DNA from: Pelotomaculum isophthalicicum JI
GTDB taxonomy: Bacteria; Bacillota; Desulfotomaculia; Desulfotomaculales; Pelotomaculaceae
Reading direction: 5' to 3'
Assembly (NCBI RefSeq): GCF_029478095.1
Contig: NZ_JAKOAV010000020.1
Location: 1 to 64,000 of the forward strand
DNA: 64,000 nucleotides
Shown: one piece after another, positions 738-50,287 of the stretch
Layout: each line of letters starts with the position of its first letter
Numbering within the stretch: the stretch's first letter is position 1
The notes under the pieces: model-generated
What the model was told of the DNA's origin: nothing
Databases searched by the model: none
The model's input: only the letters and a program-made list of their open reading frames with translations
Translations under genes and position numbers: made by a program

Positions 738-1610
738 TTAGAACTTGGGATAAATATACGGGTTTTGAGGCTCCTGCGCCTTACTAAAGGCAGTAATCCT
801 AATTACAGGGATTGTATTTCCCTCGTATTTTCCTAATTGAATGGTTCCCCGGATATTCAGCCAATCGCCTTCTCTAAAGTTTGACGCATTCTTATATTCG
901 CACATAAAGCCATCTGGCATAGCGTCAGCGGAGCAGCATGTAATTACATAACGAACCAGCCCAAATTGATCGGTAGTAAACTTTTGTTCTTTTAATACAA
1001 AACCGATCATGGTTATTTCTTTGCCAGCATACTGTTCGGGATACATGTTTACCTCATTGGTAACCAAAGAAAAATTATCTTCGGTTACATTAATAAGACT
1101 GGTTTTATGAAGTTCATCGATTTTTGCTTGCATTGGGTTTTGCTCCTGTGGGAGGTATCCTTGACTGTTTGAGTTGTTATTATTAGTCTGTGTTGTTGGT
1201 ACATTACCCGGGACGGTAACAGTTAGGCCGGGTTGACCTGAGGTCGTCGGCCGTGTGCTAAGGTTCATTCCTTTATTAAAAGCCATGCTGGCATCAAGAG
1301 CATTGTTAGGCAATAGAAACGCCATCATTAGAGTGACAACGAACGGGAGTAAGGCCAATTTATTATGACTATGGCCGGAATGGCACAAGCAGCTATGGAC
1401 AACAGATGTCCATCTAAAGGAATTGCCGGCTTGCACCAAAAACATGAGAAATATCAGAACTGCTGCCGCCTCGGTAAGCCTTACAAAACGAGGATTGATA
1501 TAGTAAACAATATTATTGCTTTTCACAAACCAAAAAAGAAACGCGCTAAATCCAAGAAGAATTAAAGTTTTGAAAACAGCTTCTGTGTTAAGCGAGAAAC
1601 GCCTTTTCAT
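738..1610 (-). CDS. DUF1980 / TIGR03943 family membrane protein (YcgQ-like)
   Basis: This protein of about 290 residues has hydrophobic segments near its N-terminus (starting FKTLILLGFSAFLFWF) and a soluble C-terminal domain carrying VITCCSADAMP, the CC motif of the DUF1980 family. Members are usually paired with an ArsP_1/DUF318 permease, as here, and are often zinc-regulated. The ATG at 1610 lies one base after the TAG stop of the permease gene, so translation is probably coupled. A TTG nine codons upstream would overlap the permease gene and is less likely. The low-complexity stretch rich in Asn, Thr and Gln near residues 125-160 is probably a linker. The biochemical role is unknown. Confidence 0.75.
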   Translation of the reverse strand: MKRRFSLNTEAVFKTLILLGFSAFLFWFVKSNNIVYYINPRFVRLTEAAAVLIFLMFLVQAGNSFRWTSVVHSCLCHSGHSHNKLALLPFVVTLMMAFLLPNNALDASMAFNKGMNLSTRPTTSGQPGLTVTVPGNVPTTQTNNNNSNSQGYLPQEQNPMQAKIDELHKTSLINVTEDNFSLVTNEVNMYPEQYAGKEITMIGFVLKEQKFTTDQFGLVRYVITCCSADAMPDGFMCEYKNASNFREGDWLNIRGTIQLGKYEGNTIPVIRITAFSKAQEPQNPYIYPKF

Positions 1611-1611
1611 C

Positions 1612-2682
1612 CTACCTGAAACCCCCGACTGACACAATATTGATCAAAAGAGTACTACCTATAACCAATAGACTAACTATCATAACCAGAGCAATTACAA
1701 AACGAGCCTTAAAAGCATTGAGCAACATTAAATTATTTTTCATATCAATCATAGGACCGAACACCATGAATGCGAGCAGTGAACCAGTAGTAAAATTGGT
1801 TGCAAATGACGCGGCGATAAAAGCATCGGCAGATGAGCAAACAGAAACCCCAAAGGCAAAGGTCATCATTGCCGCTATTGATGACAGTGAATTCTGCCCT
1901 ATGTTCAATATAATGTCTCGTGACACAAAGGTTTGAGCAATTGCAGCTAAAGAAGCTCCCATAATCAAATACTTACCCATATCAAAAAACTCATCGCAGG
2001 CGCTCTGGAATGTGTTAATTATTTTGGTTTTAAATGTTGGTTGTGAATTGTGATGGTGGTCATGATGTTCATGATCACAACCGCAGTAATAGAAGTTTTG
2101 GACAATACCCCTTTTCAGTTCGCTACTGTCAAACCAATAGCTCAAAAGCAGCCCGGTAACAAAAGAAACAAAGAAAGCCAGTCCTAGCCTGAACCAAACT
2201 ATTTTAGGGTTGGCGCTGAACGCAACCGCTGTTGACGAAGCGACTACCGGATTAATAATGGGCGCGGCCAACATAAAGGTTATGGCGCTATAAAGAGGAA
2301 CTCCTTTACTAACCAGCCTTCGGGCGACCGGCACAATACCGCATTCGCATACGGGAAAGATAATCCCCAGAAAACAGGCAAGGAAAATGTTTAGAATTCT
2401 GTTCCCGGGTAAAACTTTACGTATTGTTTCTTCAGAAAGAAAATTTTCCAGGATGGCGGATACAAGAACGCCGATAAGAATAAACGGCAGTGCCTCAATG
2501 ATAATGCTCAGGAAAACTGTTTTAAAGTTTAAAAAATCGTTCCAAGTTATTATTGCCCTGGCATTTTTAAAAGGTAACGCAGTCACTAATGATTTTGACA
2601 AATGCCATGTTATATAAGTAAAGAATAGCAAGAAAAGAAATGGGATAGCCAGCTTTTTTATATTTAAAATTAATACACGCAA
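1612..2682 (-). CDS. ArsP_1/DUF318-family permease (YcgR-like)
   Basis: A 356-residue integral membrane protein with about eight hydrophobic segments. It has the family landmarks: an early LPFILIGVLVSAILE segment, FPVCECGIVPVARRLVSKG, and AAPIINPVVASSTAVAF. A cytosolic-type loop near residue 205 is very His-rich (CDHEHHDHHHN), which suggests metal binding. The family exports or permeates small inorganic or organometallic species, and the substrate here is not determined. The zinc-type binding protein upstream favours zinc or a related metal. The TTG start at 2682 has a GGCGAG-type ribosome site. It reads as an operon with its neighbours on both sides. Confidence 0.75.
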   Translation of the reverse strand: MRVLILNIKKLAIPFLFLLFFTYITWHLSKSLVTALPFKNARAIITWNDFLNFKTVFLSIIIEALPFILIGVLVSAILENFLSEETIRKVLPGNRILNIFLACFLGIIFPVCECGIVPVARRLVSKGVPLYSAITFMLAAPIINPVVASSTAVAFSANPKIVWFRLGLAFFVSFVTGLLLSYWFDSSELKRGIVQNFYYCGCDHEHHDHHHNSQPTFKTKIINTFQSACDEFFDMGKYLIMGASLAAIAQTFVSRDIILNIGQNSLSSIAAMMTFAFGVSVCSSADAFIAASFATNFTTGSLLAFMVFGPMIDMKNNLMLLNAFKARFVIALVMIVSLLVIGSTLLINIVSVGGFR

Positions 2683-2713
2683 ATTAATCTCGCCTTCGTT
2701 CTTTATCTTAAGT

Positions 2714-3628
2714 TTAGTTTAACGCTTCTTCTAAAGTTTTCATGTTGGCTTCCATAGTTTTCAGATAAGCGTCCGGCTCCATGCTACCCGTTACCGCCGG
2801 ATCAAGGGTATATACTTTCGCTCCCGTTTCGCGGGCAATGGTCTCCGCAGCTTTCGCCGGATACTGGGGTTCAGCGAAGAGCGCCTTAATATTTGACTCT
2901 TTAATAGTTTCGATAGTGTCAGCCAACTCAGCGGCACTCGGTTCAGAACCGGGTTCCCTTTCGATTACATCTACAATGTTAAGGTTAAATTCCCGGGCAA
3001 AATAAGGAAATGCTTCATGAAACGTAATGATGTCCCGCTTCTTGGCGCCATCAAGATTCTGATGCATTGTCACGCGGAGGGCATCAAGCTGATCGACATA
3101 TGCGGTAGTATTAGCATTGTATTGCGCGGCATGCTCCGGATCAAGCGCGGCCAGTTGCAGCCCGATATTTTTCACCTGTTGTATGGCATTTGATATACTT
3201 ACCCATACGTGAGGATTATCTCCTTCCTCTCCGTCTCCTTTTATAAGCGGTATACCCTTGCTCGCGTCAACAATTTTCAGATCAGGCAGTTGACTGACCA
3301 CTTTATCCATAAACGCCTCCATCCCCGCACCGTTAACAATAAATATTTGAGCCTCACTAAGAGTTTTTAAGTCATCAGGCTTGAGCTGGTAATCATGCAG
3401 ACAACCTGTCGTAGGCTGGGTTATATTGACAACCTTTACACCAGGTACGTCTTTGGCGACATTCACAGCCGCTATATACATTGGGTAAAAGGACGTAGCA
3501 ATGGTCAAGGTTTTACTTGCTGTTGATTTATCCGGCACCGTTGGGGTTTGTACCTGACATGCCGACAAAAAAACAGATATAACGGCAAGTAAAATAACAG
3601 CAATTAAAAAGTTTGCAGGTTTACGCAT
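2714..3628 (-). CDS. znuA: Zinc/manganese ABC transporter substrate-binding lipoprotein (ZnuA/TroA family)
   Basis: A 304-residue cluster A-I (PF01297) metal-binding protein anchored outside the membrane. It has a lipobox signal peptide ending LSAC. Likely metal-ligand regions are GCLHDYQLKPDD, NPHVWVS and ITFHEAFPYF, each with a His, plus an acidic C-terminal site. The usual His-rich loop is replaced by a short acidic stretch (DGEEGD). The start is placed at the ATG at 3628, behind GAGAGGAAG; an in-frame start 20 codons upstream has no such site. No ZnuB or ZnuC gene is adjacent, so the membrane partner must be elsewhere, or the protein serves the downstream permease. Confidence 0.8.
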   Translation of the reverse strand: MRKPANFLIAVILLAVISVFLSACQVQTPTVPDKSTASKTLTIATSFYPMYIAAVNVAKDVPGVKVVNITQPTTGCLHDYQLKPDDLKTLSEAQIFIVNGAGMEAFMDKVVSQLPDLKIVDASKGIPLIKGDGEEGDNPHVWVSISNAIQQVKNIGLQLAALDPEHAAQYNANTTAYVDQLDALRVTMHQNLDGAKKRDIITFHEAFPYFAREFNLNIVDVIEREPGSEPSAAELADTIETIKESNIKALFAEPQYPAKAAETIARETGAKVYTLDPAVTGSMEPDAYLKTMEANMKTLEEALN

Positions 3629-3886
3629 TTTAAAACTTCCTCTCAGTATATTTTGCAAATCAATAGTTCGATCAAAAAAATAATTCAATTAGTTAATTAA
3701 ATTTCCAACGTTTTAATAGCTATAACGAAAATTCCTCATGGAATAGTATTCAGAAAATCCCCCTTTCATTCAAGGTTAAAGTGCTTATTCTTTAACAAGA
3801 AGTCTTCCTAAATAATACATATTCTTATTTGCAACTTAATATTACTTATATCCTGAAAATTTACAACTGTCAATAGCAATTAGAAT

Positions 3887-5181: not shown

Positions 5182-8100
5182 TTGATGGAGGTGAACAATG
5201 AGAATTTGAGCAAATATAATCATGTCCATGCTGATAGAGCCAAGATAGTTCACCTTCTGCCCGGCCGGGTAAGGATGTTCGTGCCGCGGCTAAAGGGTAA
5301 CTGGTTAATGGCTTCGGTCATTAACCAGAAAATGACGGAAATGGCCGGTGTCCGTCAGGCGCGGGCAAACCCGCTGACAGGCCGGGTATTGGTGGTTTTT
5401 AACGAAACACAGATAAGACCAAACAACCTGATTAAAACCATTAACGACATAAATAATGAACCAGAGTTTGAGTTCCATCTGCCTCCAAAGAATAACCAAG
5501 CATCCGCTTCAACTTTGAAGAAGCTTCAGGAACCGGAAGATTTACCGATCAGCGAGCAACTGCTAAATGTGGCCATGGGGGGAGGTATACTGGCTTATTT
5601 AGGGCTAAAGCGCGTCCTGTTCGGCCGCTCCTCTCTGGCCGAGAACCCCGGTATTTTCAACCTTGCGGCAATCACTGCCATCGTTTCCGGTTATCCGGTT
5701 TTGCATAGCGGATTCCAAAGCCTAGTTAAAGGCAGGATCAACCACGACTTATTGATGGGCACAATAGCCTTGGGCACCGTTTTTTTGCGGGAAAGTATTC
5801 CCGGACTGCTGGTAATCTGGCTGGTCAACCTAACCGCTTTGGGGCAGTCTCTGGTGCTTCGGAGCTATCGCAACGCGCTGCCAGAACTGCCTGAAACAAC
5901 AGGAAAGCCGGCGCAAAAACAAGAGAAATTGACAATTCCCCGTTGGAGTGAGGCTGGGCAAGAGTATGGCCGCAAGGCGGTCCTGCCGGTATTTGGGCTG
6001 GCTTCATTATCGGGAATTGCCGGCGGCGCCGGCGGTTTCCAAAGATGGCTAGCCATGCTGCTGGCGGCCAACCCGTCTCCCGCCGGCCTTGCCGCCCCTA
6101 CCGCCGCTACCGCGGCGATGGCCGGGGCGGGGAAAAAAGGGATCCTTTACCGGGACGAGCATACACTTGAGGTTCTTTCAGCGGTGGACACAGTTGTCAT
6201 CACCAGCGCAAAGACGCTGTCTGAAGCATCCTACCAGGTGGCGGACATTCTACCGGCTCCCGGGATTACCAAAAAAGAATTGCTTGACTTGGCAGCTGAG
6301 GCTTCATGCCAAATGGATAACCATCATTGCCTGGTCTTAAGGAAAGCGCTGGCAGCCCGGGTATACCGCTTAAGATCAACAAATAACAGCCCAGGGGCAA
6401 GCGGACGGATATTAGCAGGTGATGAACATATTCTAACAGCCGGCGGCATCGACAGCAGGTGGTTTTTTTCCAAAGCCCGGCGTCTGCGGCATCTCGGTCA
6501 ACTTCCGGTATTTATTGCCACGCATGGCCGGTTAGCCGGCCTGCTCGGGATCAAGCGGTATCGGGCGGCTGATCTGCGCGAACTGGTTAACGGCTTACGC
6601 GCCCTGGGTATTAGTAACATTGGTTTAACCGTGGAAGAAGATAACAATGTGTTGCGGCAGTCCGCCCATGAACTCGGAATACACCATGTCTGGCCGGGTT
6701 TAACAACTCAAAACACAGTAGCGGAAATCGGCAATTTGAAGCGCCAGGTTAAGAAGATTGCTTTATTAATGGGTGATACAGACGACTCTCCATTATTACA
6801 AGTTGCTGACGTTAGTATTTGCCTGGCTTCCAATCTGAAATGCAATTCAGTCGACGTGGTTATTTCCAAACCCGCCTTATTACCGGAAGTATTCCGCATG
6901 GCAAGGATTGGTAGACTACGGGCCAAACAGAATTTAGCTTTAGTCCTGGCGGCTAACGTCGCAGGTTTGGCTCTGGGGGCAACAGGCCGTATGCCGCCGA
7001 TGGCCGCCTCAGTATATAACAATTTAATTTCTGTATTTGTAGGAGCAAATTCTTTGCGGCTGTTGTCAGGCAAACCCCGTCACCCAAGAAACCATTGCCG
7101 TTCGCTGCCGACAGCGCGAAAGGAAATAGCCGCGGCTTTAGCTCTTGCGGATAATTATCCTAAAACCCTTCAGCAGGAACATCGGCAAAAATATAGCTTT
7201 AACGACTTGCACAAACTGTCAGTAGCCGAAGCTTTAAGCAAACTAAAAACAGACCTGGAAAGTGGCCTGGATAAGCCTCAAGTGCTGCAGAGAATGAACT
7301 TATTCGGCCCAAATAAGTTGGCTGAAGCGAAGCCGCAGGGTTTTCTCTCCAGGATATGGGACCAACTCAAGGACTTTCTAGTAAAAGCTTTAATGGCCTC
7401 TTCAGCGGTCTGCATTGTGATGGGTGAATTTAATGACGCCCTGGCAATAGTGACTATCTTGATCTTGAATGCAGTTCTGGGCGCCCTGCAGGAGCAAAAA
7501 GCCGAGGGGGCTTTAGAAGCCCTGGATAAAATGACCGCTCCTACCGCAAAAGTTAGAAGGTCCGGAAAAGTGCGGCGTTTACCGGCAGCCGAATTGGTGC
7601 CGGGCGACATTGTATTGCTGGAGCAGGGGGACGGAGTCCCAGCGGATTTACGACTGGTAGAAGTACACGGGCTGGAAATCGAAGAGTCGGCCCTGACCGG
7701 CGAGCCATATCCAATACCTAAAAAAGCCGACCTGATCACAGATTGCGTCGCTTTATTAGATTGTGACAACCTGGCGTTCATGGGCACGAATGTTACCCGG
7801 GGGCGAGCGGTGGGACTGGTGTCGGCTACCGGCATGTCGACTGAAATCGGCAAGATTGCCGGCATGCTCAACGAGCATAAGAGGGAACCCACACCTCTGC
7901 AAAACCGCATGACCGCGGTTGGCGGCGTAATACTAAAGTACTCCCTGGCGGCCAGCGGGCTGGTGGCGCTGGCCGGCGTGCTGCGGGGCGGCTCATTGTT
8001 CCAGATGTTTTTAGCCGGGGTCAGCCTGGCAGTCGCCGCCATACCGGAAGGTTTACCGGCTGTTGTTACCATCGCCATGGCTTCCGGCGTCAAACGGATG

Positions 8101-9906
8101 GCTAAGGAAAACGCCGTGGTCAGGCGCCTGCCGGCCGTGGAGACACTGGGCAGCGCTACTTTAATCTGTACCGACAAAACGGGTACATTAACCCAAAACC
8201 GTCAGCAGGTGCAGTCGGTTTATACCAGTAGCGGCTGGTGGCAAACCCAACCGGGCGAGCGGCAGCTTAAACCGGTCCAAACCGGGAACAACGACCCGCA
8301 AGATTTGGTGAGTTTGCTGACTGCCGGAATACTGTGCAACGATGCCAGCCTGCACTGGTCACAAAACAAACCGGCCGGGAAGACTAAACCACAGTGGCAG
8401 GTAGAAGGCGACCCTACCGAAGGCGCCTTGCTGCTGGCAGCCTTGCAAGAAGGCCTGAATTACAAGGAAATACAGGAAAAGTGGCAGCGGATTCGAGAGC
8501 TTCCCTTTGACGCCGAACGGTTAAGAATGACGGTGATTTGCCGGGAAAAAAGTCTGGATTACGCGGCATTTGTGAAAGGCGCGCCGGAAGTTGTCCTTGG
8601 CCTTTGCCCACAAATGCAGCAACAGGGTAGAATTGTTCCTCTGGACGGCGCTTCCCGCCAAGCGGTGCTGGAGGCAAGCGAGCGGATGGCCGGAGACGCC
8701 ATGCGGGTACTGGCAATTGCTTACCGCCCGCTGTCTGATCCGGATTTGCCCGACCCGGAACAATCTCTTATCTTGCTCGGCCTGGCAGGCATGGTTGACC
8801 CGCCGCGGCCGGAGGTCGGCAATGCCATTGCCACTTGTCACCGCGCCGGGATCAAGGTCGCAATGATCACCGGGGATCACCCCAATACCGCACTGACTAT
8901 AGCCAAAAAGCTGGGCATTGCCGAAAGCGGCAACGTGCTTACCGGACGTGACATTGAGAGTCTCAATGACCTTGAATTAGCAACGGCTGTGCGAGAAGTG
9001 AGAGTTTTCGCCCGGGTGCTGCCGGCGCACAAATTACGCTTGGTCAAGGCTTTCCGCCAGCAGGGTGAAATCTTAGCCATGGTCGGGGACGGCGTCAACG
9101 ACGCCCCCGCCGTGAAAGAAGGAGACATCGGGGTAGCCATGGGCCGGACCGGTACCGACGTAACCAAACAAGCCGCCGATATCGTGCTGCTTGATGACAA
9201 TTTCGCCACGCTGGTTTCCGCTGTGGAACAGGGCAGGGGAATATACAGCAACATCAAGCGGTCTGCACGTTACTTATTGTCTACTAATGCCGGTGAAGTG
9301 CTTTTAATGTTCCTGTCGGTTCTTCTTGGCTTACCGATGCCTTTACTGCCCATCCAGTTGCTCTTCCTGAATTTATTGGGAGACGGCCTGCCGGCTTTGG
9401 CCCTGGGAGTTGAGCCGCTGGCCAAAGACTTGATGGACCAGGCGCCCAGGCCGGCCAATCAAAGTTTTTTTGATGAGGGGCTTAACACCCAAATAGCCAG
9501 CCGGGGTGTATCCCTTGGCCTGGTTGGATTAGGGGCCTACCACTGGGCCTTAAAACAAGGCAACCTGAGCCGGGCCAGGACTGTGGCACTGGCAACCATT
9601 ACATCAGGACAACTGTTGGCGGCCTTGGAATGCGGTGAACGAAAAGAAGGCAAATCAAGCCATTTCCTGGCTGGCTCGGTGGCTCTATCGGCAGCCTTGC
9701 TGGCCGGAGCAATCTACCTGCCATTTGGCAGGGGGATCTTTAAAACAAGTCCGCTGGGTCTGATGGACGCAGCCGTTGCATTAGGCACATCCGGGCTGAC
9801 TTCAATTATGGACCGTGCCATTGCCGATTTATGGCGTGGCAGTATACCAAGTAAAAAACCATTAATGCCGGCAATTAAAGAAAAAGCGGAGAGCTGCCAG
9901 GATTAA
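5182..9906 (+). CDS. Tandem P-type ATPase: degenerate heavy-metal-type half fused to an active calcium-type half
   Basis: A 1574-residue membrane protein. Residues 20-80 resemble a small HMA-like domain with HLLPGRVRM. Residues 120-640 follow a P1B-ATPase plan, but every catalytic signature is lost: the DKTGTLT position reads TSAKTLS at 341-347, the CPC position reads NPSP, and the hinge GDGxNDAP reads GDTDDSP near 531. Residues 660-1560 form a complete P2A-like pump with ESALTGEP (about 836), PEGLPAV (about 955), DKTGTLT with Asp998, and GDGVNDAP (1302-1309). The organisation resembles mycobacterial CtpI. The transported ion is unknown. The start is uncertain: a strong GGAGGTG lies inside the first codons and best serves an out-of-frame ATG at 5198. 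Confidence 0.85.
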   Translation: MMEVNNENLSKYNHVHADRAKIVHLLPGRVRMFVPRLKGNWLMASVINQKMTEMAGVRQARANPLTGRVLVVFNETQIRPNNLIKTINDINNEPEFEFHLPPKNNQASASTLKKLQEPEDLPISEQLLNVAMGGGILAYLGLKRVLFGRSSLAENPGIFNLAAITAIVSGYPVLHSGFQSLVKGRINHDLLMGTIALGTVFLRESIPGLLVIWLVNLTALGQSLVLRSYRNALPELPETTGKPAQKQEKLTIPRWSEAGQEYGRKAVLPVFGLASLSGIAGGAGGFQRWLAMLLAANPSPAGLAAPTAATAAMAGAGKKGILYRDEHTLEVLSAVDTVVITSAKTLSEASYQVADILPAPGITKKELLDLAAEASCQMDNHHCLVLRKALAARVYRLRSTNNSPGASGRILAGDEHILTAGGIDSRWFFSKARRLRHLGQLPVFIATHGRLAGLLGIKRYRAADLRELVNGLRALGISNIGLTVEEDNNVLRQSAHELGIHHVWPGLTTQNTVAEIGNLKRQVKKIALLMGDTDDSPLLQVADVSICLASNLKCNSVDVVISKPALLPEVFRMARIGRLRAKQNLALVLAANVAGLALGATGRMPPMAASVYNNLISVFVGANSLRLLSGKPRHPRNHCRSLPTARKEIAAALALADNYPKTLQQEHRQKYSFNDLHKLSVAEALSKLKTDLESGLDKPQVLQRMNLFGPNKLAEAKPQGFLSRIWDQLKDFLVKALMASSAVCIVMGEFNDALAIVTILILNAVLGALQEQKAEGALEALDKMTAPTAKVRRSGKVRRLPAAELVPGDIVLLEQGDGVPADLRLVEVHGLEIEESALTGEPYPIPKKADLITDCVALLDCDNLAFMGTNVTRGRAVGLVSATGMSTEIGKIAGMLNEHKREPTPLQNRMTAVGGVILKYSLAASGLVALAGVLRGGSLFQMFLAGVSLAVAAIPEGLPAVVTIAMASGVKRMAKENAVVRRLPAVETLGSATLICTDKTGTLTQNRQQVQSVYTSSGWWQTQPGERQLKPVQTGNNDPQDLVSLLTAGILCNDASLHWSQNKPAGKTKPQWQVEGDPTEGALLLAALQEGLNYKEIQEKWQRIRELPFDAERLRMTVICREKSLDYAAFVKGAPEVVLGLCPQMQQQGRIVPLDGASRQAVLEASERMAGDAMRVLAIAYRPLSDPDLPDPEQSLILLGLAGMVDPPRPEVGNAIATCHRAGIKVAMITGDHPNTALTIAKKLGIAESGNVLTGRDIESLNDLELATAVREVRVFARVLPAHKLRLVKAFRQQGEILAMVGDGVNDAPAVKEGDIGVAMGRTGTDVTKQAADIVLLDDNFATLVSAVEQGRGIYSNIKRSARYLLSTNAGEVLLMFLSVLLGLPMPLLPIQLLFLNLLGDGLPALALGVEPLAKDLMDQAPRPANQSFFDEGLNTQIASRGVSLGLVGLGAYHWALKQGNLSRARTVALATITSGQLLAALECGERKEGKSSHFLAGSVALSAALLAGAIYLPFGRGIFKTSPLGLMDAAVALGTSGLTSIMDRAIADLWRGSIPSKKPLMPAIKEKAESCQD

Positions 9907-9921: not shown

Positions 9922-10230
9922 TTATATATCTCCTTCCACATCCGCAACCGGCCCCGCTGCCTGCGGATGTGATTCATCGGGTAACTTTTGCTCCATTCTT
10001 TCCTGCATAGTCCTGGCGCTTTCCACCATTTTTCCCCATGCATCCTTTAGAGAATCACCGGCATCATTAACCATATCATTGACAGTAAACGCACTTTTTA
10101 CTGTTAACACAGCTAGACCACGGACTGTCTTTTTAAGTACCGGAACACCTGCTATACCCACTACCGCTCCAACCGCCAATAAGCCCAGAGGTGACAGTGT
10201 CCGTAAAGGACTTGCCAGTAACCATTTCAA
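9922..10230 (-). CDS. DUF5132 family small membrane-associated protein
   Basis: A 102-residue protein with one Gly- and Val-rich hydrophobic segment (about residues 13-30, LGLLAVGAVVGIAGVPV) followed by a basic helix and an amphipathic, coiled-coil-like tail. DUF5132 proteins are typically found beside P-type ATPases and HMA-like proteins in anaerobes, which fits this position. The TTG start at 10230 lies behind AGGAGGAG. The gene is convergent with the ATPase. The function is unknown. A scaffold or accessory role at the membrane is an inference from context. Confidence 0.65.
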   Translation of the reverse strand: MKWLLASPLRTLSPLGLLAVGAVVGIAGVPVLKKTVRGLAVLTVKSAFTVNDMVNDAGDSLKDAWGKMVESARTMQERMEQKLPDESHPQAAGPVADVEGDI

Positions 10231-10413: not shown

Positions 10414-11187
10414 ATGCATCAAGAACAAGATAAAGAAATGGTTAGCAAATATGACCCCGAGGTAATCAAGCAGCTAAAGAAGGAAATTATTGAGGATCTT
10501 GAGGAACGCCGGGAATGGCGGGAGAAGCACTACCATGACGGCTATGGCCGGGGCAACTACCCGCCGGTGCACCAAAATCGAAAACGCCGGAATTATGAAG
10601 ATGACTGGTGGACTGACAGAGAAGAATATGATTATCAGCGTAATATGTCACTGGCGAGAAACCAGTTGCGGGATGAGTTAAGAGCGCTGGATAAAATGAA
10701 CCAGCGTCTTGGACAAGTCAGGGACCCTCAAATACATCAAATGCTTCATGACTTGTTATATGAAGCCCGGGAACAGGGCATGGGAGTTCAGGACCTGCTG
10801 CAAAGCCTGGGAACAAATAACAGCGGTCCCGGCAGAGCAAGACCTTTCTGGAACCGGATTACGAATCCATTGAGAGGCATCGACCGCCGCAGTTTTGGCT
10901 GGGGGGCGGGCGCGGCATTAGTTGGTCTGCTCTTTTTACCCTCGGTTTCAAAATCAATACGTCCGTTGATCTGTAAAGCAATGGAAGAAGCGATAGAAAT
11001 AAATGAACGGGTACATGGCGTTTTTGCTCAGGCAAAAGAGGAAATCGAAGATATTGTTGCCGAGGTAAGCTTTAATAAAATCGCGTCATCACCAAAGGTA
11101 CCGGTATCCAATGACGACGTGACTGGTAAAAATGAACCAGCCCACGATAACGAGCAGACTCAAGATAATGAAGCAAACCTCGAATAA
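10414..11187 (+). CDS. Unrecognised charged protein with one membrane segment, P-type ATPase neighbourhood
   Basis: About 257 residues from the ATG at 10414, chosen because GGAGG lies seven bases upstream; an ATG 14 codons earlier has no such site. The N-terminal 110 residues are extremely charged and aromatic (for example EERREWREKHYHDGYGRG), with a predicted helix near 90-140. One glycine-rich hydrophobic segment follows (FGWGAGAALVGLLFLP, about residues 163-180), then an acidic helix and a disordered tail rich in Asn, Asp and Glu. The layout resembles YtxH-like or membrane-scaffold proteins, but I do not recognise a family. The next small gene follows after about 30 bases and is probably cotranscribed. 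Confidence 0.6.
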   Translation: MHQEQDKEMVSKYDPEVIKQLKKEIIEDLEERREWREKHYHDGYGRGNYPPVHQNRKRRNYEDDWWTDREEYDYQRNMSLARNQLRDELRALDKMNQRLGQVRDPQIHQMLHDLLYEAREQGMGVQDLLQSLGTNNSGPGRARPFWNRITNPLRGIDRRSFGWGAGAALVGLLFLPSVSKSIRPLICKAMEEAIEINERVHGVFAQAKEEIEDIVAEVSFNKIASSPKVPVSNDDVTGKNEPAHDNEQTQDNEANLE

Positions 11188-24024: not shown

Positions 24025-24924
24025 CTATTTATTTTTAACGCTGCCATCCACACTTCTGACAATTTTCATTTCAGTCCCCGGAATATAACCAAGCTGAGGA
24101 ACAATATTTTTCTGCACCTCATCAGTCATCATGAAATTCAAAAAAGCTTCCGCCACCCCGCTTGGCTTGCCCTTGGTGTAGCTGTGTTCATATCCCCACA
24201 CCAGGTACTTGCCGGTAGTGATATTTTCTTTGTTGGGCGCAACTCCGTCCAGGCTGACAGCCTTTACGCTGCCGTCCAGATAAGACAGCGCCAGGTAGCC
24301 AATCGCCCCGGGAGTATCGTGAATAATCTTGCGGACTGTGCCCGAAGAATCTTCCTCAATGCCGGTGGCCTCCTCAGCGCCGCCCAGCGCAAATTTCTTG
24401 AAGACCGCCCGTGTGCCGGAAGCTTTCGGGCGGTTCACCAGCACTATTTTTTGATCAGGACCGCCCACGCTGTTCCAGTTAGTTATTTTACCGGTAAAAA
24501 TATCCACCAACTGTTGCTTTGTCAGGTTGTCAATAGTAATTGCCGGGTTAACCACCGCAGCCATGCCGACAACACAAATCTGGTGGTCAGTAAGTTGTGA
24601 AGCATCGATACCTTCCTTTTCTTCAGCGTAAATATCCGAATTACCGATGTCAGCCGCTCCCTGCGCGACCTGGGTGAGGCCGGTGCCGCTGCCGCCGCCC
24701 TGCACCACTACTTTGGCATTCGGATTCTTGGCCATGAACTGAGTCGCGGCCTGTTCCATCAGCGGCTGCAGGGCGGTGGAACCCACCGCGGTAATGTTGC
24801 CGGACAACTGCTGGGCCTTGTTATCCGTCCCTTGTTGAGCCGCCTGTCCGCCGCAGCCGGCCAACGCTATCACAGTCGACAGGCACAATGCGGCAACTAC
24901 CATAAATTTTGCTTTTTTCAGCAA
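24025..24924 (-). CDS. pstS: Phosphate-binding lipoprotein PstS (copy 1)
   Basis: A 299-residue extracytoplasmic phosphate-binding protein. It has a lipobox signal peptide ending ALAGC and the phosphate-site segments GSTALQPL, GGGSGTGL, NRPKASGTR and TPGAIGYL. It starts at TTG 24924 behind AGGAGGAG. A near-identical paralogue lies at 36348-37247. It follows phoB in the operon and precedes pstC and pstA. Confidence 0.93.
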   Translation of the reverse strand: MLKKAKFMVVAALCLSTVIALAGCGGQAAQQGTDNKAQQLSGNITAVGSTALQPLMEQAATQFMAKNPNAKVVVQGGGSGTGLTQVAQGAADIGNSDIYAEEKEGIDASQLTDHQICVVGMAAVVNPAITIDNLTKQQLVDIFTGKITNWNSVGGPDQKIVLVNRPKASGTRAVFKKFALGGAEEATGIEEDSSGTVRKIIHDTPGAIGYLALSYLDGSVKAVSLDGVAPNKENITTGKYLVWGYEHSYTKGKPSGVAEAFLNFMMTDEVQKNIVPQLGYIPGTEMKIVRSVDGSVKNK

Positions 24925-24984: not shown

Positions 24985-25686
24985 TCAGTGCGTCTCCCGA
25001 AAACGATAGCCCACCCCGCGCACCGTTTCGATATATTCCGGGTTGGCCGGATCTTTTTCAATCTTCAGGCGTAAGTACCTGATATGAACGTCTACGGTGC
25101 GTGATTTCCGGTCATAATCGTATCCCCAGATTTTTTCCAGGAGCGAATCCCTGGTAAATACCCGGCCAGGGTTAGCTACCAGCAGGTAAAGAAGTTCAAA
25201 TTCTTTCTGGGTAAGTTCCAGTCTTACCCCGTCAAGCAACGCTTCGTACTTCTCCGGCTGAATTAACAAACAGTTTACCCTTACCTCTTTTTTTGCAGCC
25301 TCCTCCTCGACAGGAGGCTGCTTGCGGCGCAGGTGAACCTTTACCCTGGCCACCAGTTCCCTGGGGGAAAATGGCTTGGTGATGTAGTCATCCGCGCCCA
25401 GCTCCAGCCCGAGCACCTTGTCCAGCATTTCATCCCTGGCGCTTAACATAATGACTGGAATGGAGGCGCTTTGCCGGTTGGACTTTAAGATGCGGAGCAC
25501 GTCAAAACCGTCCATTCCCGGAAGCATTTTATCCAGAATAATCAAATCAGGTGTTTTTTCGCCGGTTAACTTAATCGCGTCATTCCCATTAGTTGCTTCA
25601 ATTACCTGAAAGCCTTCTTTTACCAGGTTATACTTCAGAAGCTGCAGGATATTGACCTCATCGTCCACAACCAGGACTAGCGGCAT
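24985..25686 (-). CDS. phoB: PhoB/PhoP-type response regulator (copy 1)
   Basis: A 233-residue OmpR/PhoB-family regulator. The receiver domain (1-120) has the acidic pair DD near residues 8-9, phospho-acceptor DKMLPGMDG and the conserved Lys in ITKPFSPREL. The winged-helix domain ends RTVDVHIRYLRLKIEKDP...GVGYRF. It lies inside the pst cluster, so PhoB is the likely identity. No histidine kinase gene is adjacent, so phosphorylation must come from elsewhere. It starts at ATG 25686, 20 bases after the EAL/GGDEF gene. Confidence 0.9.
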   Translation of the reverse strand: MPLVLVVDDEVNILQLLKYNLVKEGFQVIEATNGNDAIKLTGEKTPDLIILDKMLPGMDGFDVLRILKSNRQSASIPVIMLSARDEMLDKVLGLELGADDYITKPFSPRELVARVKVHLRRKQPPVEEEAAKKEVRVNCLLIQPEKYEALLDGVRLELTQKEFELLYLLVANPGRVFTRDSLLEKIWGYDYDRKSRTVDVHIRYLRLKIEKDPANPEYIETVRGVGYRFRETH

Positions 25687-36347: not shown

Positions 36348-37247
36348 TTATTTGCTTTTAATATTACCTTTAGCGTCTCTCGTTATTTTCATATCAGTTT
36401 CAGGAATATAGTCTAATTGCGGGATGATATTTTTCTGCACTTCATCAGTCATCATGAACTTTAAGAAATCGTCCACCACGCCGCCTGGCTTGCCCTTGGT
36501 GTAGCTGTGTTCATAACCCCACACCAGGTATTTGCCGGTTACGATATTTTCTTTATTGGGCGCTACGCCGTCCAGGTTGACAACCTTCACGCTACCGTCC
36601 AAATATGAGAGCGCCAGGTAGCCAATCGCGCCGGGAGTATCGTGAACAATTTTCCGGACAGTACCGGAAGAATCTTCCTCAATACCGGTAGCCTCCTCTG
36701 CGCCGCCCAGCGCGTATTTTTTGAAGACTGCCCGGGTGCCGGAAGCTTTCGGGCGGTTTACCAGCACTATTTTTTGATCAGGGCCGCCCACGCTGCTCCA
36801 GTTAGTCGTTTTGCCGGTAAAAATGTCAATCAGCTGCTGTTTGGTCAGGTTGTCAACAGTGATGGCCGGGTTTACCACACAAGCCATGCCGACGACACAG
36901 ATCTGGTGGTCAGTAAGCTGTGAAACATCTATACCTTCCTTCTCTTCAGCGTAAATATCCGAATTACCGATGTCGGCCGCTCCTTGCGCGACCTGGGTGA
37001 GGCCGGTGCCGCTGCCGCCGCCCTGCACTACGATCCTGGCATTCGGATTCTTGGCCATGAACTGAGTCGCGGCCTGTTCCATCAGCGGCTGCAGGGCGGT
37101 GGAACCTACCGCCGTAATGTTACCGGACAACTGCTGGGCTTTGTTGTCCGTCCCCTGTTGAGCCGCCTGTCCGCCGCAGGCAGCCAGTACCGCCGCGGCG
37201 GCCAAGCACAGCAAAACGACAAACATCAATTTTGCCTTTTTCAGCAA
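36348..37247 (-). CDS. pstS: Phosphate-binding lipoprotein PstS (copy 2)
   Basis: A 299-residue paralogue that is nearly identical to the PstS at 24025-24924, including GSTALQPL, GGGSGTGL and NRPKASGTR. It has a lipobox ending VLAAC. I set the start at TTG 37247 behind GAGGAG, which matches the TTG start of copy 1. It follows phoB2 and is followed by the degenerate GGDEF gene. No second set of permease genes is here, so it must feed the PstCA encoded elsewhere in the window. Differences are concentrated in the signal peptide and the last 20 residues. Confidence 0.9.
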   Translation of the reverse strand: MLKKAKLMFVVLLCLAAAAVLAACGGQAAQQGTDNKAQQLSGNITAVGSTALQPLMEQAATQFMAKNPNARIVVQGGGSGTGLTQVAQGAADIGNSDIYAEEKEGIDVSQLTDHQICVVGMACVVNPAITVDNLTKQQLIDIFTGKTTNWSSVGGPDQKIVLVNRPKASGTRAVFKKYALGGAEEATGIEEDSSGTVRKIVHDTPGAIGYLALSYLDGSVKVVNLDGVAPNKENIVTGKYLVWGYEHSYTKGKPGGVVDDFLKFMMTDEVQKNIIPQLDYIPETDMKITRDAKGNIKSK

Positions 37248-37314
37248 ACCTATCTCCTCCTCGAAACCTAGTTGTTTTTTATACAAAGTGACCTTCACCT
37301 AAAGCCACTAATTT

Positions 37315-38022
37315 TTAGTGAATCTCCCGAAAACGATAGCCCACCCCGCGCACCGTTTCAATATATTTCGGATTAGCCGGGTCTTTTTCAATCTTTTGCC
37401 GCAAGTAACTGATATGAACATCCACAGTACGAGATTTTGGTTCAAAATCATATCCCCAGATCTTTTCCAGCAGGATGTCTCTTGTAAAAACCCGGCCGGG
37501 GCTCCCCGCCAGCAAGTGAAGCAGTTCAAATTCTTTTTGTGTCAGTTCCAGTCTCACACCGTCAAGCAGCGCTTCATATTTCTCCGGTTGGATGACCAAA
37601 CCGTTTATCCTGACTTCCTCAACTTCCGCCGGCTCATCTTCGACTGAAAGCATTTGCCCGCGGCGCAAATGGACTTTTACCCTGGCTACCAGTTCCCTGG
37701 GAGAAAATGGTTTGGTGATATAGTCATCCGCGCCTAATTCCAGCCCAAGCACTTTGTCCAGCTCATCGCTCCTGGCACTTAACATAATCACGGGAATAGA
37801 AGCGCTTTGCCGGTTGGCTTTTAAAATGCGCAGCACATCAAAGCCGTCCATTTCCGGGAGCATTTTGTCCAGAATAATCAAGTCCGGCGCTTTTTCGCCG
37901 GTTAACTTAATCGCGTCGTTCCCATTAGTTGCTTCAATGACCTGGTAGCCCTCTTTTGTCAGGTTATACTTCAATAGTTGCAAAATATGGGCCTCATCGT
38001 CCACAACTAGGAGCAACGGCAT
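37315..38022 (-). CDS. phoB: PhoB/PhoP-type response regulator (copy 2)
   Basis: A 235-residue paralogue of the regulator at 24985-25686. It has the receiver phospho-acceptor DKMLPEMDG, the Lys in ITKPFSPREL and a winged-helix ending GVGYRFREIH. The linker differs (MLSVEDEPAEVEEV). The ATG at 38022 follows GGGGTGG. A five-hexamer Pho array lies 30-80 bases upstream, so it is probably autoregulated. No sensor kinase gene is adjacent. Confidence 0.88.
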   Translation of the reverse strand: MPLLLVVDDEAHILQLLKYNLTKEGYQVIEATNGNDAIKLTGEKAPDLIILDKMLPEMDGFDVLRILKANRQSASIPVIMLSARSDELDKVLGLELGADDYITKPFSPRELVARVKVHLRRGQMLSVEDEPAEVEEVRINGLVIQPEKYEALLDGVRLELTQKEFELLHLLAGSPGRVFTRDILLEKIWGYDFEPKSRTVDVHISYLRQKIEKDPANPKYIETVRGVGYRFREIH

Positions 38023-38055
38023 CTTAAACCACCCCAATACACTATAAAACAATCC

Positions 38056-38811: not shown

Positions 38812-39492
38812 TTATTCCTGCCATGACCATCCGGCGGTCAACCGGGCATCTTCCCCGGTCCAACCGCTCTCTAGCGCCAGGATCGTGTCGCCTAGAAATT
38901 CGGCTTCTTCCTCATCGTGGGTTACCAGAACAAAAGGTATCCGCCACTGCTGGTGCAGGCTTTTTAGTTCATGCCTCAGGTGAACCCTGGTTCTCTTGTC
39001 CAACGCGCTGAATGGTTCATCCAACAAAAGCAGCTGCGGCTGCACGGCCAGAGCCCTGGCCAGGGCCACCCGCTGTTTCTCACCGCCGGAAAGCCGGTCG
39101 GTGTAACGGTCGACAAGATGCCCCACGCCAAAGAAATCAAGTAAATCCAGTGGGTTCCGGGAGGTACTATCCTGCTTGCGCTTCCTGCACTTCAGACCAT
39201 ATAGAACATTTTGCCGCACAGTCATATGAGGGAAAAGGGCATAATCCTGAAATAAATAACCAATATTGCGATACTGAGCCGGGATGTTAATCTTTTTTTC
39301 AGATGAATAAAGAATTTTTCCATTTAACTTCAAGAAACCCGATGAAGGCCTCAACAGGCCGGCCAAACAATGCAGAACCGTTGTTTTACCTGAGCCGGAA
39401 GGTCCCCAGAGCACCAGGATCTGATTGGCAACCCTAAACTTTAAATCAAGGGTAAAATTCATCAGTTTTTGGGTAAAACAAGCCTCCAACAT
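38812..39492 (-). CDS. modC: Molybdate ABC transporter ATPase ModC, short form
   Basis: About 226 residues. It has Walker A GPSGSGKTT, signature LSGGEKQRVALARALA, Walker B LLLLDEPFSALD and switch VTHDEEEAEF. It ends right after the ATPase domain and lacks the C-terminal TOBE/MOP molybdate-binding domain of typical ModC (about 350 residues). It follows modB by 16 bases. The start is the ATG at 39492; the ribosome site is weak, so an upstream start inside modB is possible. Supplying molybdenum to the adjacent nitrogenase is its likely task. Confidence 0.85.
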   Translation of the reverse strand: MLEACFTQKLMNFTLDLKFRVANQILVLWGPSGSGKTTVLHCLAGLLRPSSGFLKLNGKILYSSEKKINIPAQYRNIGYLFQDYALFPHMTVRQNVLYGLKCRKRKQDSTSRNPLDLLDFFGVGHLVDRYTDRLSGGEKQRVALARALAVQPQLLLLDEPFSALDKRTRVHLRHELKSLHQQWRIPFVLVTHDEEEAEFLGDTILALESGWTGEDARLTAGWSWQE

Positions 39493-39508
39493 GACTATCA
39501 CCGCGATA

Positions 39509-40180
39509 TTATTTATTTTTCCTGCCCCAGCAATTAGCCAAGAAAATGACCAGCAGGCTGAAAGCGGTAACAATAGCTACCAATGACTTGGCTGTGGCGT
39601 TATCCCCCACCTCTACCGCAAAATAAATGGCCAACGGGATGGTTTGTGTTTGCCCGGGGATGTTGCCCGCCACCATCAGTGTGGCGCCGAACTCACCCAG
39701 CGCCCGGGCGAAGGACATTACCAGGCCGGCCATAATGCCCGGCCAGGCCAGTGGGAGAGTGATAGTGAAAAGTATCCTTGCTTCACTGGCGCCCAGAGTT
39801 CTGGCCGCTTTCTCACAATTGACGTCCACACTATTAAAAGCTGCTTTGGCGCTTTGGTACATTAACGGGAATGCCACCACAGTTGAAGCCAGTACCGCCG
39901 CCCACCAGGTGAAAATTATCGATATTCCCATACCGTTCAAGAGTTTCCCTAATACACCGTTTTTCCCGATAAACATTAATAAACCATAGCCTAATACAGA
40001 AGGCGGCAGCACCATAGGTAAAGTTAAAACCGCTTCCAGCGCCTCTTTGCCGAAGAACTCCCGGCGGGCCAGCAGCCGGGACAGCGGCAGCCCCAGACAA
40101 CTAACCGCGATCAATGAGATTAGAGCAACCTTAAGAGACAGAATTACCGGGTGCCATTCAACTGATTGGATAAACGTCAT
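39509..40180 (-). CDS. modB: Molybdate ABC transporter permease ModB
   Basis: A 223-residue permease with five or six membrane helices and the EAA loop VNCEKAARTLGASEARILF followed by LPLAWPGI. Its start overlaps the modA stop by four bases (ATGA). Together with modA and modC it forms a high-affinity molybdate importer placed directly downstream of the nif genes. Confidence 0.9.
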   Translation of the reverse strand: MTFIQSVEWHPVILSLKVALISLIAVSCLGLPLSRLLARREFFGKEALEAVLTLPMVLPPSVLGYGLLMFIGKNGVLGKLLNGMGISIIFTWWAAVLASTVVAFPLMYQSAKAAFNSVDVNCEKAARTLGASEARILFTITLPLAWPGIMAGLVMSFARALGEFGATLMVAGNIPGQTQTIPLAIYFAVEVGDNATAKSLVAIVTAFSLLVIFLANCWGRKNK

Positions 40181-40980
40181 ACCCTGGAATCATTCCTTAA
40201 CTTTTTAAAACAGTATTTCTCAAAAACCTGGGACGCCTCTTCACTTTGCAGATAGTTGACAAATTCCTCAGCTTCTTTCTGGTGTTTTGAACTGTTGAGA
40301 ATAGCCACGGGGTAAACAATATTTTTATGTAAACCAGAAGGGACGGCGGCTATAATTTTAATGTTCTTGCCGGCTACGGCATCGGAACGGTAAACAAAAC
40401 CCGCGTCCACGTTGTCTGTTTCCACATACGTGATCACCTGGCGCACATCTTTGGCCAGTAGTATCTTAGCCTGTAGCTTATCCCAGAGATTAAGGGTAGT
40501 TAATGCCTCCCTGGCATACTCCCCGGCGGGCACCGTTTCCGGGATACCGATACTTATTCTGGCCACACTACCACCGGTTAAGCCTTCAATACTTGAGAGA
40601 CTGCTGTCTTTCGGCGCTATCAGCACCAACTCGTTCCCCAGGAGGTCTTTAACGGAATTGTGCACAATCAACCCCCTCTGGTCCAGGTTTGACATTTGCG
40701 GTTTGCCGGCGGAAATAAAGATATCCACAGGGGCTCCCTCTTCAATTTGCTTTTGCAGGGTTCCGGACGCGGCAAAATTATAACTTATATTTACATTCGG
40801 GCGCTGCGCGGCGTATACATTCTTCAACTCTTCCATAGCGTCCTTCAGGCTGGCGGCTGCCGAGACGACTAAATTTACCGGCTCCGCTTTGGCCGGGGTT
40901 TGTTCTTTGCCACCTGTACAGCCTGTAAGTACAGCTAGAGAAAAAAACACAACTCCCAAGAAAACCTGCCATCTTCTCAT
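40177..40980 (-). CDS. modA: Molybdate-binding lipoprotein ModA
   Basis: A 267-residue binding protein with a lipoprotein signal ending VLTGC. Oxyanion-site segments are VSAAASLKDAMEEL, NFAASGTLQKQIEEGAPVDIFISAG and the conserved Tyr region YVETDNVDAGFVYRSDA. This is the ModA/WtpA-like fold that binds molybdate or tungstate. The ATG at 40980 has GGGGCGATGG upstream. It follows the NifB-like gene by about 40 bases. Confidence 0.9.
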   Translation of the reverse strand: MRRWQVFLGVVFFSLAVLTGCTGGKEQTPAKAEPVNLVVSAAASLKDAMEELKNVYAAQRPNVNISYNFAASGTLQKQIEEGAPVDIFISAGKPQMSNLDQRGLIVHNSVKDLLGNELVLIAPKDSSLSSIEGLTGGSVARISIGIPETVPAGEYAREALTTLNLWDKLQAKILLAKDVRQVITYVETDNVDAGFVYRSDAVAGKNIKIIAAVPSGLHKNIVYPVAILNSSKHQKEAEEFVNYLQSEEASQVFEKYCFKKLRNDSRV

Positions 40981-42652: not shown

Positions 42653-43537
42653 TTATATGGCTTTCCTACTCCACAGGCCACTGAATTCCAAGGACCTGTC
42701 TTCACCCAGCAGGCCGATGGCATCCGCCCTGCACTGAGTGCAGTGGTACATCTGCTGCAGCTCATCCCGGCAAATATTTCTCATTTTATTGACTTCCTTC
42801 ATGGGTGTCTGGGACATATACTCAAAGGCGCTCCCCTTGGCCGGGATGAGCGGCATGATATTAGTGATGAATACACTCAGATCTTTGACTTTTTTTACGA
42901 TTTCCGGGATGTGGCCGTCATTTATACCCTTAATCATCACTATATTAACTTTCACCACCACACCCTGCCTGGTCAGGCGTTCTATTCCAGCCAATTGATT
43001 TTTGGTCAATATGGCGGCCCCTTCAGCGCCCTGATACCTCTTGCCTTGATAGTTAACGAACTGATAAATTCTTTTACCGATTTCCGGTGTCAGGCAGTTT
43101 ACCGTCACGGTGACATGCCTGACGCCTAATTCAACCAATTGATCAGCATAATCAGGGAGCATCAGCCCGTTTGTGGATAAACAAAATATCACATTCGGAT
43201 TGGACTTTTTAATCAGTTCAATGGTTGACTTCGTCTCATTCCAATTGGCCAGGGCTTCCCCGGGCCCGGCTATCCCCACCACGCTCAGGTTTTCCACCCT
43301 GTCTTTCACAAAATCATACTTTTCCCTGGCGGATTCAGGGGTTAATATCTCACTGGTCACACCCGGCCGGCTCTCATGCAGGCAGTCGAATTTTCTGTTG
43401 CAATAGTTGCAGTTGATATTGCACCGGGGCGCCACGGGCATGTGGATCCTGGCGTATTTATGTTTTGCTTCAAAGGAAAAACATGGATGCTGTGAAGTTC
43501 TATACCCGTTTTGCACCGGGTTGCAGGCGCAGTTCAT
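42653..43537 (-). CDS. nifB: Nitrogenase cofactor biosynthesis protein NifB
   Basis: About 294 residues. A radical SAM enzyme that builds the carbide-containing NifB-co precursor. It has SQHPCFSFEAKHKYARIH, the cluster motif CNINCNYCNRKFDC, GIAGPGEALAN, CLSTNGLMLPD and the C-terminal CTQCRADAIGLLGED. It is the stand-alone form without the C-terminal NifX-like domain. The ATG at 43537 (behind GAGGTG) overlaps the end of nifN by about 38 bases; a GTG at 43546 is the alternative. Confidence 0.92.
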   Translation of the reverse strand: MNCACNPVQNGYRTSQHPCFSFEAKHKYARIHMPVAPRCNINCNYCNRKFDCLHESRPGVTSEILTPESAREKYDFVKDRVENLSVVGIAGPGEALANWNETKSTIELIKKSNPNVIFCLSTNGLMLPDYADQLVELGVRHVTVTVNCLTPEIGKRIYQFVNYQGKRYQGAEGAAILTKNQLAGIERLTRQGVVVKVNIVMIKGINDGHIPEIVKKVKDLSVFITNIMPLIPAKGSAFEYMSQTPMKEVNKMRNICRDELQQMYHCTQCRADAIGLLGEDRSLEFSGLWSRKAI

Positions 43538-44942
43538 TTTTTTCACCTCGACCTTTGCCGGCTGGCTTTATAGTTCCATAGTAAAATTGCTGGTAAATGT
43601 TCCTCCGGTAGTTCTTGTATTTGTTTTCCAGAAGTGTATTGGTAATCCGGTCCAACAACATGGTAGTGCCCGCATAACCTACTGATAAGAGCCGTTGGCC
43701 GCCTACCCGGTCGTGGATGGGGAAACCATATCTCACCAGAGGGATGCCCTCCCATTCGGTGAGGTACCTGCCGCCGGAATGGCCGATGGCGATATTGGCT
43801 TCCATTTCCCTGCTTTTTTCCCGGATCCGTGAAAAATCCGTCTCACAGAGGACCTGTGCGTTACTACATCCGGCCTCATTTAATCGGGCTTTTAAAAGTC
43901 CGGCCAGTTTACCGCTCTTGCCACCCGTCGCCGTCACCACCGGGGTAATGCCGTTTTCCAGGCAGATACCGGCAACGGCGTAAATATTCTCCGGCTCGCC
44001 AAAAACCACGCATTTCCCCTGGGCATTATATTTATGAGAATCGATCATGCAGTCGATCAGCCTGCCCCTTTCTCGTTCCAGGCTTTCAGGAACCGGGTTT
44101 CCGGTCAACCGTTTTAGCAGGTTTATAAATAAGTCTGTATTTTCCACGCCAATAGGCACGGGCACATTGTACAACGGCACTCCGAAAGCGGATTCCAGGT
44201 AATGCCCCGGCGAGAAAACCTCGTCCACCGTCACGCCCATTTGGATAGTGGCCTGCGCACCGGCCATTCCGGCTATATCCGCCAGCTTCGTCCCCCCCGC
44301 CGGAACCTTCCGGTAAGGCCTTTCAAAGGCACGGTCCAGAGTGTCTGAAAAGTCGGGCAGCAAGATATAGCTGACTTTCATCATTTTGAGGATTCTCTTA
44401 ATCTCCCTGATATCGGCGGGACTTATGTTGGGCACAATGATATTAATACCTTTGTGCTTCACTGTTTTCTTAACCAATTCCGCGACAACCCTTTTCACGG
44501 CCAGGAAGTATCCTTCAAAGTGGCTGTAACCATAACCCGGAGTGGAAACGGTTACCACCTGTAAATTTTCAAAACCCCTTTCCTCCAGGTAATCCGCCGC
44601 GATCCTGTCAATATCCTCACCGATGGTCTCCGCCAGGCAGGTAGTGAGTATACCCACCACTTTCGGTTTGTATAATTTAATTGAGTTGTCCAGGCCTTTT
44701 TTCAGGCTGGCTTCCCCACCGTAAATAGTCCCTTTTTCGTTAAGTGATGAGGAGGCGACGTCAATGGGCTCGTTGAAGTGTTCGGCGATATGCCGGCGCA
44801 TATAAGTGCTGCAGCCCTGTGAGCCGTGGATGATCACCATGGAACCCTCTACCCCTTTGAGAGCAAGAATGGCCCCCAGCGGCATGCACATGCCGCACTG
44901 GTTTTCGTTGACATTAAGGTAGTGGGCCTGTTCCATCCCCAT
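43500..44942 (-). CDS. nifN: Nitrogenase cofactor scaffold subunit NifN
   Basis: A 480-residue NifK-like protein that forms the NifEN scaffold on which NifB-co matures. It has the N-terminal NENQCGMCMPLGAILAL, GSQGCSTYMRRHIAEHFNEP, a CLAETIGEDI segment and the late GHSGGRYLTEWEGIPLVRYG. Its position after nifE and before nifB separates it from NifK. The ATG at 44942 is preceded by GGGAGGTG. The gene end overlaps nifB. Confidence 0.9.
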   Translation of the reverse strand: MGMEQAHYLNVNENQCGMCMPLGAILALKGVEGSMVIIHGSQGCSTYMRRHIAEHFNEPIDVASSSLNEKGTIYGGEASLKKGLDNSIKLYKPKVVGILTTCLAETIGEDIDRIAADYLEERGFENLQVVTVSTPGYGYSHFEGYFLAVKRVVAELVKKTVKHKGINIIVPNISPADIREIKRILKMMKVSYILLPDFSDTLDRAFERPYRKVPAGGTKLADIAGMAGAQATIQMGVTVDEVFSPGHYLESAFGVPLYNVPVPIGVENTDLFINLLKRLTGNPVPESLERERGRLIDCMIDSHKYNAQGKCVVFGEPENIYAVAGICLENGITPVVTATGGKSGKLAGLLKARLNEAGCSNAQVLCETDFSRIREKSREMEANIAIGHSGGRYLTEWEGIPLVRYGFPIHDRVGGQRLLSVGYAGTTMLLDRITNTLLENKYKNYRRNIYQQFYYGTIKPAGKGRGEKNELRLQPGAKRV

Positions 44943-44958
44943 GAAAACTGCACCTCCC

Positions 44959-46371: not shown

Positions 46372-46392
46372 ATCAGCCACTTCTTTCTTTTC

Positions 46393-47778: not shown

Positions 47779-47794
47779 GTTACGTTTCTCCTTC

Positions 47795-49420: not shown

Positions 49421-49443
49421 AAATACTACCCCCTTTACCGCTT

Positions 49444-49824: not shown

Positions 49825-49836
49825 TATGGTCACCCC

Positions 49837-50163: not shown

Positions 50164-50192
50164 GGCGGTCACTCCTTCTTTTAAATTCAAGT

Positions 50193-50276: not shown

Positions 50277-50287
50277 GTTTATTTATA

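Follow-up and report, generated by a model that had tools for sequence, protein, structure and literature searches.

The stretch of DNA analysed here (64,000 nucleotides of a Pelotomaculum isophthalicicum JI contig, hereafter the window) encodes a 1574-aa double P-type ATPase in which an HMA_2 domain and a dead P1B-derived half are joined to a live P2A-type half (Table 1). Relatives keep the HMA_2 head and front membrane helices of the dead half, beside genes for PacL-like small membrane proteins, and the half is therefore probably not junk but a platform for docking or control. The same fused gene is present in independent genomes, including that of Pelotomaculum terephthalicicum (L055), and the fusion is thus no assembly artefact.

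Anatomy of the double ATPase

An earlier note on this DNA had proposed a dead heavy-metal-type half followed by a live calcium-type half, and motifs, domain matches and fold agree with this. The N-half lacks the P1B motif set: Thr341 replaces the phosphorylation Asp, as the note had numbered it, in TSAKT (for DKTGT), the CPx site reads NPSPAG, GDGxND reads MGDTDD and there is no A domain (TGES). Compared with the live HMA2-P1B pump that adjoins an orthologue in L042, which served as the reference for these losses, CPC has become PSP, DKTGT has become TSAKT and TGD has become VEE, HP is absent and GDGxND is lost. The P1B-like layout that the note described is P1B-derived but incomplete, because the actuator domain between TM4 and TM5 has been deleted; in the alignment the TM4–TM5 gap measures 24 residues, versus 105–118 in P1B homologues that bear an A domain.

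NCBIfam P1B models match residues 286–630. An AF2 model of the N-half, built from 8 sequences and of moderate quality (pLDDT 62), has its best structural matches in CopA, Cd-ATPase and ZntA (VIA Z 24–26; Foldseek E to 2e-20), which points to a P1B fold; KdpB is also among the fold matches. The domains lost differ by lineage, namely the A domain in the window clade and the N domain in L046/L047. At the head of the protein, Pfam places HMA_2 (PF19991) at residues 21–89, with a score of 43.2–47.5 bits against a curated cut-off of 30. This leading domain, the loss of the A domain and the two neighbouring small-protein gene families had been overlooked in the earlier note. The start codon of the open reading frame is given as TTG by the ORF tool, and the true start is uncertain within ~25 bases.

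The C-half, matched as a full P2 pump by Pfam at residues 677–1544, has all catalytic motifs, as had been claimed (TGEP839, DKTGT998, GDGVND1302), with Asp998 correctly numbered and encoded at 8173. It also has the Ca site II side chains in PEGL955 (M4), NAGE1369 (M5) and N-x-x-G-D (M6). In these features, and in its best NCBIfam model (TIGR01522, PMR1-type), it resembles PMR1/SPCA-type P2A Ca2+ pumps. It differs from them in that its score of 673.8 bits lies below the equivalog cut-off of 798.3, in that the M6 Thr (SERCA T799) is Gly, and in its place in the P2 tree, where a branch with support of 98/97 splits ordinary P2A pumps, to which the C-half stands at 40–50%, from all HMA_2-linked P2 pumps. 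From family knowledge, we take its likely cargo to be Ca2+ or Mn2+.

Table 1. Features of the double ATPase gene and its two small-protein neighbours (window coordinates).
Feature	Position	Strand	Basis
Double P-type ATPase, 1574 aa (HMA_2 – dead P1B half – live P2A-type half)	5182..9906	+	ORF, Pfam/NCBIfam
HMA_2 domain, residues 21–90; LPGRxR signature retained, cysteine-free	5242..5451	+	Pfam PF19991 above cut-off
TM1–4 of dead half, residues 121–231; best-conserved part among orthologues	5542..5874	+	AF2 model
Site of deleted actuator (A) domain; 24 residues remaining of ~117	5878..5946	+	Alignment
Former CPC metal site, reads ANPSPAGL	6067..6090	+	
Former DKTGT phosphorylation site, reads TSAKT (Thr341)	6202..6216	+	
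Degenerate P/N catalytic region, residues 319–562	6136..6867	+	Foldseek/VIA match to CopA, ZntA P-N domains
Former GDGxND site of dead half, reads MGDTDD	6769-6786	+	
TM7–8 of dead half, residues 563–628	6868..7065	+	AF2, alignment
Live P2A-type half, residues 677–1546; TGEP, DKTGT, GDGVND, Ca site II residues	7210..9819	+	Pfam/NCBIfam
S102, small single-TM protein; PacL/DUF6110-like (sub-threshold), GxxxG in TM, conserved neighbour	9922..10230	-	
S271, 257-aa helical protein; C-terminal TM and S102-like region, YtxH/DUF5132-like (sub-threshold), conserved neighbour	10414..11187	+	

Relatives and selection on the dead half

Of 398 Bacillota genomes, 97 have HMA_2 at E 0.001, and 47 exceed the cut-off. 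The frames concerned measure ~200 aa, 600 aa (lone dead halves), 720–790 aa (HMA2-P1B), 985–1120 aa (HMA2-P2) and 1530–1650 aa (doubles); the doubles occur in about five of the 398. The fusion is present at fifteen Bacillota loci, and a search with a 5-member N-half alignment retrieved three loci. Judged from their motifs, related genomes hold a graded series that runs from an unfused, semi-dead P1B partner (L089, L104 and L106, where HMA2-P2 adjoins a separately encoded P1B that retains DKTG and GDGxND but has TGES or CPC altered) through a fused half with DKTG retained (L093, L094) and a separate dead half beside HMA2-P2 (L087, L088) to the fused dead half (window, L039–L048, L091, L092).

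Nine window-type doubles form a clade in the P2 tree (100/99), and their N-halves do so in the P1B tree (98/86), where the degenerate halves are separated from live P1B pumps by a branch with support of 95/91, long branches being a caveat. The lone dead half of L087 groups with the fused N-half of L046/L047 and that of L088 with L092 (both 100/100); correspondingly, the P2 half of the L046/L047 doubles is joined by an HMA2-P2 pump of L087 (1012 aa), again at 100/100. In L087 the dead half and two HMA2-P2 pumps are three separate parts, and its relative L046 has the same three parts, but there the dead half is joined to precisely the corresponding P2. The trees of the two halves agree, unfused pairs included. 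Distances for the N- and C-halves correlate (Mantel r 0.91 for all sequences and 0.57 for the thinned set; reached in 0 of 10000 permutations). The double state requires at least four changes on the P2 tree, and fusion or fission must therefore have been repeated.

Several of these loci carry further variants. In L040 (5295-10009, G008) the double-ATPase gene is split into two overlapping frames at 7421-7487, at the start of the P2 half, which looks like a frameshift mutation or an assembly error. Semi-dead HMA2-P1B pumps, with DKTG and GDGxND kept and TGES altered to TGQ or RGK, occur in L095 (3594-5753), L105 (1258-3420), L094 (7540-9681), L104 (2916-5135) and L106 (5858-8071); those of L095 and L105 adjoin a live HMA2-P1B and those of L104 and L106 an HMA2-P2. 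Such pumps may phosphorylate but not dephosphorylate. HMA_2-headed P2 ATPases of 950–1080 aa (L098, L101–L103, L104, L106 and L046 7728-10799), for which we found no description as a class, have Glu in place of the M6 Asp (NLVTEG) and are adjoined by S102/S271-like genes.

The closest named family is FUPA24 (TC 3.A.3.24), of which the window protein would be a variant. FUPA24 proteins, including mycobacterial CtpH and CtpI, are about twice the normal length with catalytic motifs only in a C-terminal P2-like half, and the published account treats their N-segment as one large stretch containing two TMS (PMC3573892); its identity as a dead P1B pump is not stated in the accessible papers. The family has been described as uncharacterised (PMC10654040), and in reviews CtpI and CtpH count as P-type ATPases whose function is unknown. 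The window protein shares the confinement of the motifs to the C-terminal half and, at 1574 aa, lies within the ~1500–1650 aa range; it differs in a P2 half nearer the PMR1 type, a well-defined HMA_2 and PacL-like neighbours. The likeness to CtpI suggested by the earlier note is upheld for architecture and for N-half homology, the latter measured with the actinobacterial CtpI-sized doubles L143/L144, CtpI and CtpH themselves being compared by description: hhalign aligned the N-halves from HMA_2 to the P-domain, with a probability of 88.6 and E 2.7e-6 across 477 columns. These actinobacterial doubles also have an HMA2-like start, a deleted A domain (33 residues) and a degenerate D-T-V-V site. 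In the P2 tree the P2 half here and those of the actinobacterial doubles do not group in one clade, L143/L144 lying on a long branch with L100. A plasmid search with an actinobacterial double found partial relatives only, one being a Streptomyces ATPase of 1442 aa whose N-half match is very weak, and a literature search outside subscription papers (such as the TCDB superfamily papers) turned up no work under the name of degenerate or double P-type ATPases.

Random decay of the N-half among orthologues, a prospect raised by the earlier note, is seen at the catalytic residues and not in the half as a whole. Catalytic positions vary freely, the DKTGT site alone reading TSAKT, TSVET, NGIEA, AGTEA, DSETV, ENSWG, TEQEM, TDVNV or SGTEI. 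The dN/dS of the N-half is 0.38–0.43 by YN00 (~0.25 by NG86), about twice that of the P2 half (0.16–0.21, YN00); the half as a whole is thus under purifying selection and not decaying. Mean pairwise identities in dead halves (the nine window-type orthologues) and live HMA2-P1B pumps are 0.56 versus 0.52 for TM1–4, 0.39 versus 0.37 for HMA_2, 0.40 versus 0.77 for the P-domain and 0.48 versus 0.75 for TM5–6; the two sets are of unequal depth, and we therefore lean only on the reversed order within each. HMA_2 and TM1–4 of the dead half thus seem as conserved as in live P1B pumps and the P-domain and TM5–6 relaxed, which suggests that selection has moved off the engine and onto the head and front membrane helices.

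Neighbouring small proteins and the role of the dead half

S102, with a single TM judged from its sequence and two invariant glycines (GxxxG), has the context of PacL proteins, its gene lying beside a P-type ATPase and its TM bearing a glycine motif. It falls under the Pfam cut-offs for DUF6110/DUF1490 (12.5 bits versus 26), one member of its family matches DUF1490 at E 0.0031, and PF19605 gave no match above cut-off in this genome or three others. S271 has a weak EncFtn-like match (E 0.002–0.006) and a poor structure model (pLDDT 48). All 14 of the other double loci have an S102- or S271-like gene, in most cases no more than ~1 kb away; none is present at 86 control loci of P-type ATPases, which cover 465 kb and mostly have flanks of 1.5 kb. 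S271-like genes also lie beside HMA2-P2 pumps with no P1B partner in view (L098, L101–L103); the dead half is therefore not needed for that association. In P. terephthalicicum (L039 3756-4015) the S102 gene is absent from the locus, and S271 and the double ATPase are kept.

A comparable arrangement of a P-type ATPase with an N-terminal metal-binding-type domain and adjoining genes for single-TM, glycine-motif small proteins is found in the PacL-CtpC and PacL2-CtpG effluxosomes of M. tuberculosis (PMC9374683, PMC13043812), where acidic repeats of PacL bind the N-terminal domain of CtpG and cluster the pumps (PMC13043812). There the P1B pump is live, whereas here it is dead with a P2 pump attached, and S102 falls short of the DUF1490 and DUF6110 cut-offs. 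It is these PacL-like neighbours that lead to a docking hypothesis. We propose, with confidence about evenly balanced, that the dead half is a retained pseudo-pump, a platform on which the live P2 pump docks and through which it is regulated, with the PacL-like small proteins as organisers. In this half a P1B ATPase has lost phosphorylation, dephosphorylation (with the whole A domain) and its transmembrane metal site, and has retained the HMA_2 head, membrane helices and a worn P-domain. The presumed order is that it began as a protein of its own, the P1B partner to an HMA_2-headed P2 pump, and was fused to that pump later. HMA_2 and TM1–4 would hold the live pump in a membrane assembly with S102 and S271 through putative physical docking and regulation, on the model of PacL proteins holding CtpC and CtpG via their N-terminal domains, and the C-half alone would pump, probably Ca2+ or Mn2+. 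Among the roles listed in the earlier note, a membrane platform or regulatory domain is favoured by the conservation of HMA_2 and TM1–4 and by the PacL-like neighbours; metal sensing is doubtful because the HMA_2 domain is free of Cys and the CPC site has been lost.

The purifying selection on the N-half and its co-inheritance with the P2 half, fused and unfused, would also suit an autoinhibitory or allosteric domain that acts directly on the P2 half, through contact by the P-domain remnant or HMA_2 and with no part for the small proteins. The P-domain fold is indeed still recognisable, but conservation is lowest in the cytoplasmic remnant, HMA_2 and the membrane portion hold up better by comparison with live pumps, and the lineage-specific losses of cytoplasmic domains are better suited to a membrane role; we consider direct control of this kind unlikely. 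That the half is a functionless relic carried along by fusion is improbable. Its freely varying catalytic residues, doubled dN/dS and shrinkage through domain loss would be expected of one, but dN/dS is clearly below 1, the open reading frame has been kept over many genera, TM1–4 and HMA_2 match live pumps in conservation, and dead halves that are unfused persist as genes of their own.

Ferrosome (fez) clusters share HMA_2 modules, a P1B ATPase and a small membrane protein with this locus, which could reflect a ferrosome-like iron-storage function with HMA_2 from FezC, P1B from FezB and the small protein from FezA. In other Bacillota, presumed fez-like clusters (L056, L107–L111) do have a P1B ATPase flanked by HMA_2 proteins, and PacL/DUF6110-like small proteins are common to both. 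However, the FezB-like enzymes, so labelled from cluster layout and not from a named fezB, are live, have no P2 half and form their own clade (100/100) with the dead halves outside; the live pump here is of the P2 type and a stand-alone FezC-like gene is absent from the locus, making this origin very improbable. KdpFABC is a precedent for a P-type subunit that works with a partner, and with KdpB among the fold matches the dead half might supply part of an ion path with the P2 half driving transport, as KdpB drives KdpA. The relaxation of TM5–6 and the ion site relative to live P1B, and the full site II of the P2 half itself, leave such sharing scarcely credible.

The platform reading can be extended, tentatively and at somewhat less than even confidence, to a class of heteromeric P-type ATPases in which an inactive P1B pseudo-pump is the obligate partner of an active P2 pump, separate at first, repeatedly fused and PacL-organised, with the actinobacterial CtpH/CtpI type as its fused form. 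If the N-half is a retained pseudo-pump with an unfused, separate-gene form, the role of the mysterious half could be tested in a non-pathogen. P-type ATPases, usually seen as self-contained, would gain a pseudoenzyme-regulated class, and PacL-type platforms would extend from heavy-metal to Ca-type pumps.

Other features of the genome and window

The same genome encodes a second dead pump outside the window (G000:C9:23907-26696; L148 6905-9700, minus strand), a P2A Ca-type ATPase of full length (931 aa) whose gene lies next to dapF and an fbpA/rqcH-like gene. In it DKTGT reads NKIGT, GDGVND reads GSGLED, PEGL reads PAGL and TGES reads VGES. Dead orthologues (dN/dS 0.22–0.33) are present in P. 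terephthalicicum (L151), L168, L176, L178 and L179, spanning three genera of the family, and the other relatives compared keep a live version. This ATPase is dead in four of four family members with a window-type double and in two without one.

Two further clusters were judged from their translations. Upstream of the double ATPase, on the minus strand at 738-3688, a TIGR03943-like protein, a permease and a ZnuA-like binding protein make up what looks like a metal (zinc) uptake cluster. A nitrogenase-like cluster (NifH-, NifD-, NifK-, NifE- and NifN-like) at 43500-51444 is accompanied by a molybdate-type ABC transporter (38812-40980) and an ammonium transporter (51942-53354). A local duplication accounts for a pair of closely similar PstS-like phosphate-binding proteins (24025-24924 and 36348-37298), each with a PhoB-like response regulator beside it (24985-25686 and 37315-38052).
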